NCBI RefSeq assembly: GCF_900111015.1
Contig: NZ_FOFS01000012.1
Span: forward strand, 62,001-126,000
Length of the DNA stretch: 64,000 nt
Source: Solimonas aquatica
GTDB taxonomy: Bacteria; Pseudomonadota; Gammaproteobacteria; Nevskiales; Nevskiaceae
Reading direction: 5' to 3'
The position numbers and the translations under genes were made by a program. This document shows positions 61,351 to 64,000 of this stretch, in pieces; within the stretch, counting starts at the first letter, position 1; every line of letters starts with the position of its first letter. Below the pieces are notes generated by a model that was not told the DNA's origin, searched no databases, and saw nothing but the letters and a program-made list of their open reading frames with translations.

Positions 61351-61896
61351 ATGGGATATTTCACCGACATCGCACGTGGCACCTACACCACGCTGCGCAG
61401 CATCGTGATGATTTTTTCGCACAGCTGGCGCAAGCGTGACGTCATCCCGTATCCGGAAGTAAAGCCTTACATGCCGCCGCGCTACCGTGGCCGCATCGTG
61501 CTCACGCGCGATCCGGACGGCGAAGAGCGCTGCGTGGCCTGCAATCTCTGCGCGGTGGCCTGCCCGGTGGGCTGCATCTCGCTGCAGAAGGCGGAGAAGG
61601 CCGACGGCCGCTGGTATCCGGAATGGTTCCGCATCAATTTCTCGCGCTGCATCTTCTGCGGTCTTTGCGAGGAAGCCTGCCCGACCACCGCCATCCAGCT
61701 GACGCCGGACTACGAGATCTGCGAGTACCAGCGTCAGAGCCTGGTCTACGAAAAGGAAGACCTGCTGATCAGCGGCACCGGCAAGTATCCGGACTACAAC
61801 TTCTACCGCGTCGCCGGCATGGCGATCGACGGCAAGCCCAAGGGTGCCGCCGACAACGAGTCGGCGCCGGTGGACATCAAGAGCCTGCTGCCATGA
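61351..61896 (+). CDS. nuoI: NADH-quinone oxidoreductase subunit I
   Basis: A 181-aa ferredoxin-like subunit with two [4Fe-4S] clusters (N6a, N6b): [17 protein letters not shown] and [16 protein letters not shown]. An N-terminal amphipathic helix lies along the membrane. It starts 2 bases after nuoH and overlaps nuoJ by 4 bases. Confidence 0.97.
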
Positions 61897-62381
61897 GCTT
61901 CTTCTTTTATCTCGCCGCCGCCGTGGCCGTGATCGCCACGCTGTTCGTGATCGGTGGCCGCAATCCGGTGCACGCGCTGCTGTATCTGGTGGTCTCGCTG
62001 CTCGCCGTGGCCGGCATCTTCTTCATGATGGGCGCGCCGTTTGCCGGTGCCCTGGAAGTGATCGTCTACGCCGGCGCGATCATGGTGCTGTTCGTGTTCG
62101 TGGTGATGATGCTCAACCTCGGGCAGGCCACCGTCGATCAGGAACGCCACTGGATCCAGATGCGCTACTGGGTGGGGCCGGGGCTGCTCTCGGCGATTCT
62201 GCTCGCCGGACTGCTGTTCGTACTGGGCAACGGCGGCACGCATCCGATGAGCATGACCGAGGTCAGCGCCAAGCAGGTGGGCATCCATCTGTTCGGACCT
62301 TATCTGCTGGCGGTGGAACTGGCGTCGATGCTGCTGCTGGCAGCACTGGTGGCGGCCTACCACCTCGGCAAGCACGACTAA
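61893..62381 (+). CDS. nuoJ: NADH-quinone oxidoreductase subunit J
   Basis: A 162-aa membrane subunit with five helices. Helix 3 carries the conserved [22 protein letters not shown], where the pi-bulge forms. ATGA overlap with nuoI; nuoK starts 24 bp downstream. Confidence 0.96.
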
Positions 62382-62405
62382 GCGATACGCACGGGAATAG
62401 GGACG

Positions 62406-62729
62406 ATGGAAACGACTGGGTTGGTGACAATCCCGATGGAGCACGGCCTGATTCTGGCCGCGATCCTCTTCGTGCTGGGCTTAACCGGCGTGATGGTTCG
62501 GCGCAACATCCTGTTCATGCTGATGTCGCTGGAAGTGATGATGAATGCCGCGGCACTGGCCTTCGTCACCGCCGGCGCCCGCTGGCAGCAGGCTGACGGC
62601 CAGATCATGTTCATCCTGGTGCTGACGCTGGCGGCCTCCGAGGCCTCCGTGGGTCTGGCCATTCTCATGCAGCTGTATCGGCGCTTCCACACCCTGGACG
62701 TCGATGCCGCATCCGAACTGAAAGGGTGA
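62406..62729 (+). CDS. nuoK: NADH-quinone oxidoreductase subunit K
   Basis: A 107-aa three-helix proton-channel subunit. Conserved [42 protein letters not shown] with Glu in the second helix, and a second Glu in [11 protein letters not shown]. The first ATG (62406) adds about 8-10 residues over E. coli NuoK; a GTG at 62424 or the ATG at 62436 could be the real start. The stop is followed at once by a perfect hairpin and the tandem repeat block. Confidence 0.95.
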
Positions 62730-62762
62730 GGGCGCAATGAAAGCAAAGCTTTCATTGCGCCC
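62730..62762. repeat. Perfect 15-bp hairpin directly after nuoK
   Basis: GGGCGCAATGAAAGC (62730-62744) and its exact complement GCTTTCATTGCGCCC (62748-62762) are separated by AAA. No T tract follows. In the second repeat copy only the inner ten base pairs (62854-62863 with 62867-62876) are kept. It could slow RNA decay or ribosomes between nuoK and nuoL. Confidence 0.88.
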
Positions 62763-62972
62763 GAACGCACGGCCAGGGATGGCCGGGCCGGGGCTCGAGT
62801 TGCCGGCGAAGGTCGCGCCACGGATGGCCGCAACAATGAATTGGGAAAGCCACCAATGAAAGCAAAGCTTTCATTGCGCCCGAACGCACGGCCAGGGATG
62901 GCCGGGCCGGGGCTTGAGTTGCCGGCGAAGGTCGCGCCACGGACGGCTACACATACGAATAGGGAAGCCCAC
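62735..62972. repeat. Tandem direct duplication of a 119-bp unit between nuoK and nuoL
   Basis: Copy A 62735-62853, copy B 62854-62972, offset 119. By eye the first 93 bases differ at only two positions. The last 26 differ more but still align, including a GGGAA ribosome-site-like stretch just before an ATG in each. The unit contains a palindrome followed by CGAACGCACGGCCAGGGATG and GCCGGGCCGGGGCT. nuoK and nuoL usually lie only a few bases apart, so this is an insertion plus duplication. Confidence 0.93.
62737..62859 (+). CDS. Small frame A in the nuoK-nuoL repeat (40 aa)
   Basis: An open frame beginning MKAKLSLRPNARPGMAGPGL and ending in NWESHQ, Arg/Pro/Gly-rich and without hydrophobic helices. 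It starts 7 bases after the nuoK stop, and its TGA overlaps the ATG of the next small frame (ATGA). It may be translated simply to carry ribosomes from nuoK to nuoL. No known family; translation is unproven. Confidence 0.4.
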   Translation: MKAKLSLRPNARPGMAGPGLELPAKVAPRMAATMNWESHQ

Positions 62973-62975
62973 TGA
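62856..62975 (+). CDS. Small frame B in the nuoK-nuoL repeat (39 aa)
   Basis: The duplicate of frame A: the first 29 residues are identical, and the end differs (TATHTNREAH). It is preceded by GGGAAAG. Its TGA shares a base with the nuoL ATG (TGATG), so it is set up for translational coupling to nuoL. Both frames being kept open and coupled after duplication argues weakly for translation. Confidence 0.4.
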   Translation: MKAKLSLRPNARPGMAGPGLELPAKVAPRTATHTNREAH

Positions 62976-64000
62976 TGCATCTCCTCTTTCTCGTCTTCCT
63001 GCTGCCGCTGCTCGGCTTCGTCACCCTGGCCCTGGGCCGCACGCGCATCTCCGAGAACGGCGGTGCGGTGATTGGCGTCGGCAGTGTCGGTCTGGCCGCC
63101 GCGATCACCGGCTTCATCGCCACGCAGTTCTATCAGCTGCCGGCCGGTGAGTCCTATACCCAGGTGCTGTGGACCTGGATGAACGTCGATGGCTTTGTGC
63201 CGCGCTTTGCCCTGCGCCTGGATCAGCTGTCGATGCTGATGATGTGCGTGATCACGGGCGTGGGCTTCTTCATCCACCTGTTCGCGTCCTGGTACATGCG
63301 CGGCGACGAGGCCTATACCCGCTTCTTCGCCTACATGAATCTGTTCGTGGCCAGCATGCTGTTCCTGGTGCTGGGCGACAACCTGCTGTTCCTGTACTTC
63401 GGCTGGGAAGGCGTGGGTCTGGCCTCCTATCTGCTGATCGGCTTCTGGTATCAGGACGCCGCCAACGGCGCGGCCGCGCGCAAGGCCTTCGTGGTCACCC
63501 GCGTTGGCGACACTTTCATGGCCATCGGCCTGTTCATTCTCTTCCATGCCCTGGGCACGCTGGAGATCCAGGAGATCCTCCGGCTGGCGCCGCAGCACTG
63601 GCAGGCCGGTGATCCGCAGCTGACGGCGGCGGCGCTGCTGCTGCTGGGCGGCGCGGTGGGCAAGTCGGCACAGCTGCCGCTGCAGACCTGGCTGCCGGAT
63701 GCCATGGCCGGTCCCACCCCGGTCTCGGCGCTGATTCACGCCGCCACCATGGTCACCGCCGGTGTGTACCTGATCGCGCGCACGCATGTGCTGTTCGAAC
63801 TCTCGCCGCTGGCGATGTCGGCGGTGGGCTGGACCGGCGGTGTGACGCTGCTGATGGCGGGCTTCATTGCGCTGACGCAGAGCGACATCAAGAAGATTCT
63901 CGCCTACTCGACCATGTCGCAGATCGGCTACATGTTCCTGGCGCTGGGCGCGGGCGCTTACCAGCCGGCGGTGTTCCATCTGATGACGCACGCCTTCTTC
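62975..64000 (+). CDS. nuoL: NADH-quinone oxidoreductase subunit L (3' end outside window)
   Basis: Antiporter-like proton-pumping subunit at the far end of the membrane arm. The first 342 codons are present of an expected 600 or more. Signatures: ALRLDQLSMLMMCVITGVGFFIHLFASWYM, FFAYMNLFVASMLFLVLGDNLLFLYFGWEGVGLASYLLIGFWY (key Glu in GWEGVG), GKSAQLPLQTWLPDAMAGPTPVSALIHAATMVTAG (key Lys) and SDIKKILAYSTMSQIGYMFLALG. The start overlaps the stop of small frame B. nuoM and nuoN are expected to the right. Confidence 0.97.
   Translation, partial: MHLLFLVFLLPLLGFVTLALGRTRISENGGAVIGVGSVGLAAAITGFIATQFYQLPAGESYTQVLWTWMNVDGFVPRFALRLDQLSMLMMCVITGVGFFIHLFASWYMRGDEAYTRFFAYMNLFVASMLFLVLGDNLLFLYFGWEGVGLASYLLIGFWYQDAANGAAARKAFVVTRVGDTFMAIGLFILFHALGTLEIQEILRLAPQHWQAGDPQLTAAALLLLGGAVGKSAQLPLQTWLPDAMAGPTPVSALIHAATMVTAGVYLIARTHVLFELSPLAMSAVGWTGGVTLLMAGFIALTQSDIKKILAYSTMSQIGYMFLALGAGAYQPAVFHLMTHAFF

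Follow-up and report, generated by a model that had tools for sequence, protein, structure and literature searches.

What are two small, tandemly arranged open frames doing between nuoK and nuoL in the nuo operon of Solimonas aquatica, and what has kept them open? We addressed this question in a contig stretch of 64,000 nucleotides (nt), here called the window, which ends within nuoL. The nuoK-nuoL spacer is 245 nt long and consists mainly of two direct copies of a 119-nt unit, 91% identical in an ungapped alignment (Table 1). A first-pass annotation, made from the sequence alone, had described both copies and their frames of 39 to 40 codons (A and B) within the nuo operon, and this was confirmed. 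It had also seen a palindrome in each copy. Copy 1 indeed has perfect 15-nt arms, but copy 2 retains only the inner part because the duplicated unit begins inside the left arm. Similarly, stops were said to overlap the next starts, which is true for A and B (ATGA) and for B and nuoL (TGATG), while nuoK and frame A are separated by a 7-nt gap. Since the repeat fills the last glycine codon of nuoK and provides its stop, NuoK is not lengthened. The nuoJ gene between nuoI and nuoK was recognized from its position and sequence only. Among named genomes, the nearest nuoK genes are those of Solimonas variicoloris (86%) and S. flava (84%). A phage or plasmid origin of the insert was rejected, as positions 62700 to 63000 of the window had no match in the two collections searched.

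Table 1. Features of the nuoK-nuoL junction and its surroundings (window positions)
Feature	Position	Strand	Remarks
nuoI	61351-61896		NCBIfam
nuoK	62406-62729	+	ORF; NCBIfam NuoK, 173.6 bits (cut-off 101)
nuoK end	62724-62726; 62727-62729		last sense codon GGG; stop TGA
Copy 1, 5' part	62726-62762	+	GTGAG foot and hairpin H1
GTGAG foot	62726-62730		supplies the final base of the Gly codon and the TGA stop of nuoK
H1 arms, copy 1	62730-62744; 62748-62762		perfect palindrome, 15-nt arms
Direct-repeat unit, copy 1	62735-62853	+	119 nt
Frame A	62737-62859	+	40 codons; start within (predicted) H1 stem, stop within ATGA
GAACG-H2-spacer-H3 core, copy 1	62763-62831	+	R1 match, 69.7 bits
Loops, copy 1	62775-62780; 62820-62825		H2 AGGGAT; H3 ACGGAT
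Direct-repeat unit, copy 2	62854-62972	+	119 nt, 91%; shortened palindrome 62854-62876
Frame B	62856-62975	+	39 codons from ATG; ATGA with frame A, TGATG with nuoL; alternative TTG start in the ORF list at 62841 (44 codons)
GAACG-H2-spacer-H3 core, copy 2	62882-62950	+	R1 match, 70.9 bits
Loops, copy 2	62894-62899; 62939-62944		H2 AGGGAT; H3 ACGGAC
nuoL	62975-64000, continues beyond the window	+	ORF; NCBIfam NDH_I_L (TIGR01974), 498.1 bits (cut-off 407.5)

The insert unit is a member of a dispersed, mobile-type repeat family. BLAST with the insert region found 24 places in the S. aquatica genome (G000; genomes and loci carry G and L numbers), the window's own included. The repeat has a common plan: a GTGAG foot, a long copy-specific hairpin (H1), and two further hairpins (H2 and H3) with ANGGAN loops. 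We built a model of the GAACG-H2-spacer-H3 core, named R1, from copies that had been selected for their loops (36 found, 31 with both hairpins, 25 aligned). In the own genome, R1 gave 57 matches with a limit of E<=0.1, of which 38 remain at E<=1e-4. The matches fall in 26 fetched stretches, 9 of which hold at least two copies. The longest array seen comprises four tandem copies with a period of 123 to 125 bp (L268, contig C28), with a further copy about 1.2 kb later. An identical copy at both ends of the 17-kb contig C4 (L244 and L245) means that the repeat probably breaks the assembly or that the contig closes on itself. At E<=1e-4, R1 was positive in 49 of 58 family genomes, with a maximum of 61 matches per genome (G017), and had no match in G004, G005, G010, G014, G015, G020, G045, G062, and G063. 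In a sample of the class, 22 of 273 other genomes were positive at E<=1e-5. Across the examined matches, the core is GC rich (0.57 to 0.81) and poor in stops. As for miniature transposon-derived elements, copies are scattered over the genome, and relatives with an empty site exist (G003, G007, and G008, see below). Thus, with the unit present elsewhere in the genome and the family, the proposal that a dispersed repeat had landed in the nuo operon held up. Literature searches on CsrA-type, operon, MITE, RPE, and IS repeats yielded no description of this repeat in the titles and abstract starts among the matches listed, and no paper matched a pairing of CsrA with dispersed repeats.

Next to the insert, the junction itself was compared between relatives. 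Of the 58 family genomes, 50 have an identified NuoK, and NuoL could be placed in 49; G041 was left out, as its contig ends before NuoL. At three loci (L184, L202, and L219), the nuoL start was set by hand. The gap was shorter than 50 nt at 34 of 49 junctions, ranging from -4 to 13 nt at 33 of them; the 38 nt called in G002 probably reflect a miscalled start. A 4-nt overlap was present in all 18 NuoK-bearing genomes of the order outside the family, as well as in 77 of the 80 named relatives, the others being two Solimonas genomes at 4 nt and one miscalled case. The remaining 15 family junctions measure 54 to 358 nt. Eight of these contain the R1 repeat (G000 with two copies, G001, G009, G048, G049, G051, G054, and G058), and there nuoK ends in GGGTGAG, or in GGATGAG in G058. 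The G063 junction has GTGAG, a palindrome, and GAACGCC, with a degenerate H2 and no R1 match. Sequence other than the repeat was found in G014, G020, G044, G045, G056, and G065. By eye, TGATG preceded nuoL at only 6 of the 15 long junctions and was therefore not used as a mark of inserts. In G021, a reversed repeat lies between nuoJ and nuoK, with no relay frame (L187).

Two genomes, G001 and G009, have one copy each, with an H1 apex resembling that of G000, and the same-genus genomes G003, G007, and G008 have no insert. In insert-free close relatives, nuoK and nuoL are 4 nt apart. These states indicate an insertion followed by a duplication, which is the order that the first-pass annotation had assumed.

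We then scored whether the long junctions are spanned by open frames. For a bridge, we required a frame of 20 or more codons whose start lies between -5 and +20 relative to the nuoK stop and whose end lies between -15 and +10 relative to the nuoL start; these limits were chosen after some frames had been seen. A relay could consist of as many as four steps, each 8 codons or longer, and 400 dinucleotide shuffles per insert served as the null. A single frame bridged 12 of 15 long junctions (1.9 expected), and a relay was present at 13 of 15 (3.9 expected), G000 being bridged by a relay of two steps. Inserts G065 (204 nt) and G020 (54 nt) were unbridged under the set limits. Shuffling the 245-nt insert of the window yielded a relay in 10% of cases, which speaks for more than chance there. 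Against this, the high GC content makes open frames common, and the null bridging rate reached 0.50 for one insert. Grouped by descent, 8 of 10 groups were bridged (1.5 expected, P about 3e-7); the groups are our own, the highest null rate of each was used, group 1 was scored as bridged though G000 needs a relay, and the null of 0 for G020 was set to 0.0025. All four groups with repeat-like inserts (P = 6e-4) and four of six groups with other inserts (P = 3e-4) were bridged. The bridged inserts that are not the repeat are those of G014 (L189), G044 (L215), G045 (L222), and G056 (L188).

Two controls were made. In the first, 13 repeat loci elsewhere in the own genome had mean rates, averaged over gaps of 100 to 280 nt, of 0.11 for single frames and 0.19 for relays. 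At the nuoJ-nuoK junction (30 loci with upstream sequence; gaps are approximate, with nuoK starts picked by length), 1 of 7 gaps of at least 50 nt was relayed. The first-pass suggestion that the repeat had evolved to be translatable is therefore not supported: intrinsic translatability was unseen at the 13 loci, H1 is hypervariable, and four inserts without the repeat are bridged too. It thus seems to be the nuoK-nuoL junction that imposes the constraint. Among other operon junctions of the own genome that contain the repeat, L231 and L255 are relayed and L230 and L253 are not; with two of only four relayed, nuoK-nuoL is not proved special. The comparison backs the idea that the window holds a ribosome relay, as far as sequences can indicate this. 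The element may, as was also suggested in the first-pass annotation, tune the NuoL:NuoK ratio.

The RNA structure of the repeat was also analyzed. The RNA of positions 62725 to 62853 has a predicted folding energy of -63.5 kcal/mol (z = -4.7), a value that none of 200 shuffles reached. In this fold, the AUG of frame A is inside the H1 stem, a position that favors hand-over from nuoK over free initiation and weakens the earlier proposal that the element brings its own ribosome site. Among 17 own-genome sequences (one of them, L264, miscut), the letters of H1 are nearly unrelated (mean pairwise identity 0.53, as compared to 0.48 after shuffling and 0.72 for the core), and still approximately 80% of its bases are paired. 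Several H1 hairpins have a 4- to 5-nt bulge on the 5' side. In the core, changes on both sides of a pair were detected at 5 of 12 pairs in 35 distinct own copies (16 cells; 2.2 in shuffles) and at 7 of 12 pairs in 77 distinct copies from other genomes (30 cells; 3.2 in shuffles), values reached by 0 of 500 shuffles in either set. True partners pair in 91 to 92% of cells and slid partners in 14 to 52%, the lowest value coming from the smaller alignment. Nearly all of this signal belongs to H2. H3, for which the support is weak, hardly varies; its outer pair is unformed in 21 of 35 own and 53 of 77 other copies.

The loops of H2 and H3 resemble CsrA/RsmA sites. Counted by model columns, ANGGAN is present in the H2 loop of 31 of 35 distinct own copies and 68 of 77 elsewhere, and in the H3 loop of 33 of 35 and 72 of 77, counts that are partly circular because the R1 training copies were chosen by loop. 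It is possible, although we doubt it, that the repeat is kept for its RNA, with the ANGGAN hairpin pair of each copy binding CsrA/RsmA to tune nuoL or to stabilize the nuo message, and that the frames are incidental to high GC. The loops in most copies and the covarying H2 stems agree with this, as does the single csrA gene of the genome. ANGGAN hexaloops are a described target of RsmE/CsrA (PMC7652899). In the same source, selected CsrA ligands mostly have no more than four stem pairs, so that the very stable H2 stem argues somewhat against strong CsrA binding. H3 is absent from the minimum-energy fold of copy 1. In window positions 62300 to 63300, no Rfam family reached gathering (RsmW scored 19.6 to 20.5 bits versus 52), and the nuo-type copies in the other scanned loci had no match at gathering to any Rfam family, those of the CsrA clan CL00106 included. 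Regulation by CsrA would also leave the bridging frames of repeat-free inserts unexplained. CsrA-type loops may nevertheless give the repeat RNA an added role.

Short RNAs with two AYGGAY/ANGGAN-loop hairpins are known as TwoAYGGAY (RF01731) and other members of clan CL00106, such as RsmW. TwoAYGGAY is among the motifs of Weinberg et al. 2010 (PMC2864571). The nuo repeat differs from them by its below-gathering scores, its variable long H1, its GTGAG foot, its GG target, and its long flank duplications (see below). A second, longer and near-palindromic repeat type of the own genome comes closer. The hairpin word GCCANGGATGGC has 132 exact occurrences in this genome and 0 read backwards, and part of them belong to the second type, in which pairs of GCCANGGATGGC lie on opposite strands approximately 230 bp apart (L124, L127, L143, L145, and L147). 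Both scanned loci of this type matched TwoAYGGAY above gathering, L124 twice and L147 once, with one further match below gathering in L147; this match to the CsrA-type clan is a further point for a CsrA role. The genome also has a cobalamin riboswitch on the minus strand (L108:284-520, 113.6 bits).

Two other explanations concern the frames themselves. That they are open by chance, in a GC-rich repeat poor in stops that entered a permissive site, with nuoL initiating freely from its own ribosome site, is unlikely. Purine-rich stretches do precede the nuoL ATG in several genomes, AGGGAA in the window being a possible site of free initiation, and the unbridged G065 and G020 would fit. Against it are the excess of bridged junctions, also by descent group, and the contrast to nuoJ-nuoK. 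It is far less probable still that the products of the frames are conserved small proteins that serve complex I in their own right. The peptides of G001 and G009 share MKTKFSAV starts and NVAPGMAS, and G000 has MKAKLSL and KVAPRMA. The 39 codons of the G001 and G009 frames, aligned without gaps, differ at 9, 8, and 6 sites in codon positions 1, 2, and 3, compared to 8, 5, and 33 in the last 100 nuoK codons and 21, 11, and 49 in the first 200 nuoL codons. This pair, a small basis taken alone, thus has no third-position excess and no sign of purifying selection on the peptide. Frames A and B had no NCBIfam match, and with these two results a conserved peptide was rejected. In addition, unrelated inserts have unrelated bridging peptides, and in 34 of 49 family genomes the gap is too short to hold a frame of this kind. 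What relatives retain at this junction is the open frame and not its peptide, and the bridging peptides are probably by-products.

The insertion sites of the repeat suggest why nuoK could receive it. Copies with a recognizable foot mostly start with GTGAG directly after GG; exceptions are L247 (after TG) and copies without a foot (L248, L249, L254, L260, and others). In 11 own-genome stretches (L230, L231, L233, L242, L244, L246, L250, L253, L255, L264 with GTGAA, and L269), the TGA of the foot closes a preceding long frame of 97 to 510 codons, which we take to be the upstream gene. Among the proteins of 8 of these 11 stretches, we noted ends that we take to be NusG-, SerC-, PEP carboxylase-, and SufB-like. 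The frames of L252, L267, L261, L247, and L266 (463, 316, 114, 61, and 22 codons) also end at such a TGA and were read otherwise. Insertion as GG/G TGA keeps glycine as the last residue, and genes ending in glycine are therefore permissive. Accordingly placed is the NuoK C terminus, which is glycine in relatives (41 other family genomes with an intact-looking C terminus of this type) except for serine in G007 and G008 and alanine in the divergent G002, G004, G005, G006, and G010.

Other copies are located where a gene starts or, in reverse orientation, where one ends, and have long direct flank duplications. Clear duplications, above the 99th percentile of 210 mismatched pairings, were detected in 4 of 15 testable stretches. 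They align over 33 nt in L247, 29 nt in L252, 39 nt in L266, and 45 nt in L263, the last being the maximum length allowed, and all end at the junction. The other 11 stretches had no duplication above that percentile. By eye, L254, which has no foot, has a flank duplication of approximately 25 bp. In L247, L252, L254, and L263, an antisense frame ends at -1 to +8 nt from H3, and in L266 a frame begins just after H3; these five frames are presumably TypA-, CoA-transferase-, LysS-, GspF-, and MtnC-like. At L270, a repeated 210-bp unit takes in a MutL-like start.

Outside the family, the addresses differ. Of 28 fetched copies, 17 are followed within 350 nt by an intact tRNA gene in the same orientation, all from other gammaproteobacterial families (L302-L305, L310-L314, L316-L318, L320-L323, and L327). 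The tRNA gene begins 13 to 25 nt after H3 in 14 cases and 164 to 166 nt after it in 3. In 12 of the 17, an upstream D-arm half was flagged, that is, a duplicate of the 5' part of the tRNA up to ..GCTCAGTTGG before GTGAGC. None of 29 loci within the family is tRNA adjacent. Thus, copies within and outside the family share the GG target and flank duplication but differ in their preferred address.

From these sequence patterns we infer that the repeat moves. Its carrier was sought in two ways. Pfam family PF01797 (Y1 or RAYT transposase) had 0 matches at E<=0.001 in the genome, which is 98.43% complete, and a RAYT/REP origin was rejected on this result. An autonomous copy, in which orphan left ends would flank a gene, was not evident in 26 pattern hits (14 in the reversed control); by eye, 16 of these are repeat copies and 10 look like chance hits.

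Several known elements are similar in part. Like MITEs and REP/BIME or ERIC-type sequences, the repeat is short, dispersed, hairpin forming, often tandem, and intergenic, and its GTGAG foot adjoins H1 as in dispersed REP sequences. In contrast to them, no clear terminal inverted repeats were seen in it, its genome lacks a Y1/RAYT transposase match, and the letters of H1 differ from copy to copy, whereas REP stems are conserved within a genome. MITE flank duplications are usually far shorter. The RtT repeats of Escherichia coli tRNA operons are likewise tandem, and carry tRNA 3' ends; the nuo-type repeat is instead preceded, outside the family, by duplicated 5' halves. Long target site duplications of 16 to 28 bp are described for a subgroup of the IS1202 group, whose 1.5-kb elements have terminal inverted repeats and encode a DDE transposase (PMC10132070); the duplications at the nuo repeat align over 29 to 45 nt. 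Rickettsia palindromic elements are tolerated in coding context by in-frame openness and encode a conserved peptide (PMC10969869), while the nuo repeat keeps a frame, not a peptide, as an intergenic relay. A similar case in our data is L267 (minus strand, contig C13), where a 549-codon frame runs through two repeat copies, which appear to be translated in frame near the protein end. This frame is presumably NifE-like. With low confidence, we suggest an undescribed class of mobile, RNA-structured elements of Gammaproteobacteria, which would insert after GG with a flank duplication of approximately 25 to 45 bp (perhaps RNA templated), use tRNA D-loops in some families and C-terminal glycine codons in Nevskiaceae, provide a GTGA stop/start, and spread CsrA-type hairpins into operons, with coupled junctions retaining only translatable copies.

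The reading that we prefer, with a probability of about 0.74, is that a tandem pair of a mobile-type repeat occupies the last glycine codon of nuoK and that only frames relaying ribosomes from nuoK to nuoL were kept. An ancestor of several Solimonas species would have gained one copy in this codon (GG/GTGAG). Probably, nuoL is translated by ribosomes handed over from nuoK, and an insert of at least 100 nt would break the hand-over unless an open frame spans the interval between the stop of nuoK and the start of nuoL. Spanning frames would then have been preserved by selection, such as the single frame of 39 to 40 codons in the single-copy relatives, and doubling of the already coupled 119-bp unit would have produced the two coupled frames of G000. 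A ribosome stopping at nuoK may melt the H1 stem and restart at frame A. The ATGA and TGATG links are those of termination-reinitiation coupling; different from the usual case, here, a non-conserved frame in a mobile-type repeat would form the link and thereby mend an interrupted junction.

The repeat combines a covarying hairpin with a GG target, long duplications of its flanks, and sites in tRNA D-loops, and it stands outside the Rfam families at gathering in the scanned loci. The nuoK-nuoL junction provides a natural experiment on translational coupling, as it received inserts on approximately ten seemingly independent occasions, with bridging in eight. Since some of the bridging frames are mutually unrelated, selection would act on translation itself and not on the peptide. 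The role of short frames between operon genes as relays thereby becomes testable, and the finding cautions against calling such frames functional small proteins.
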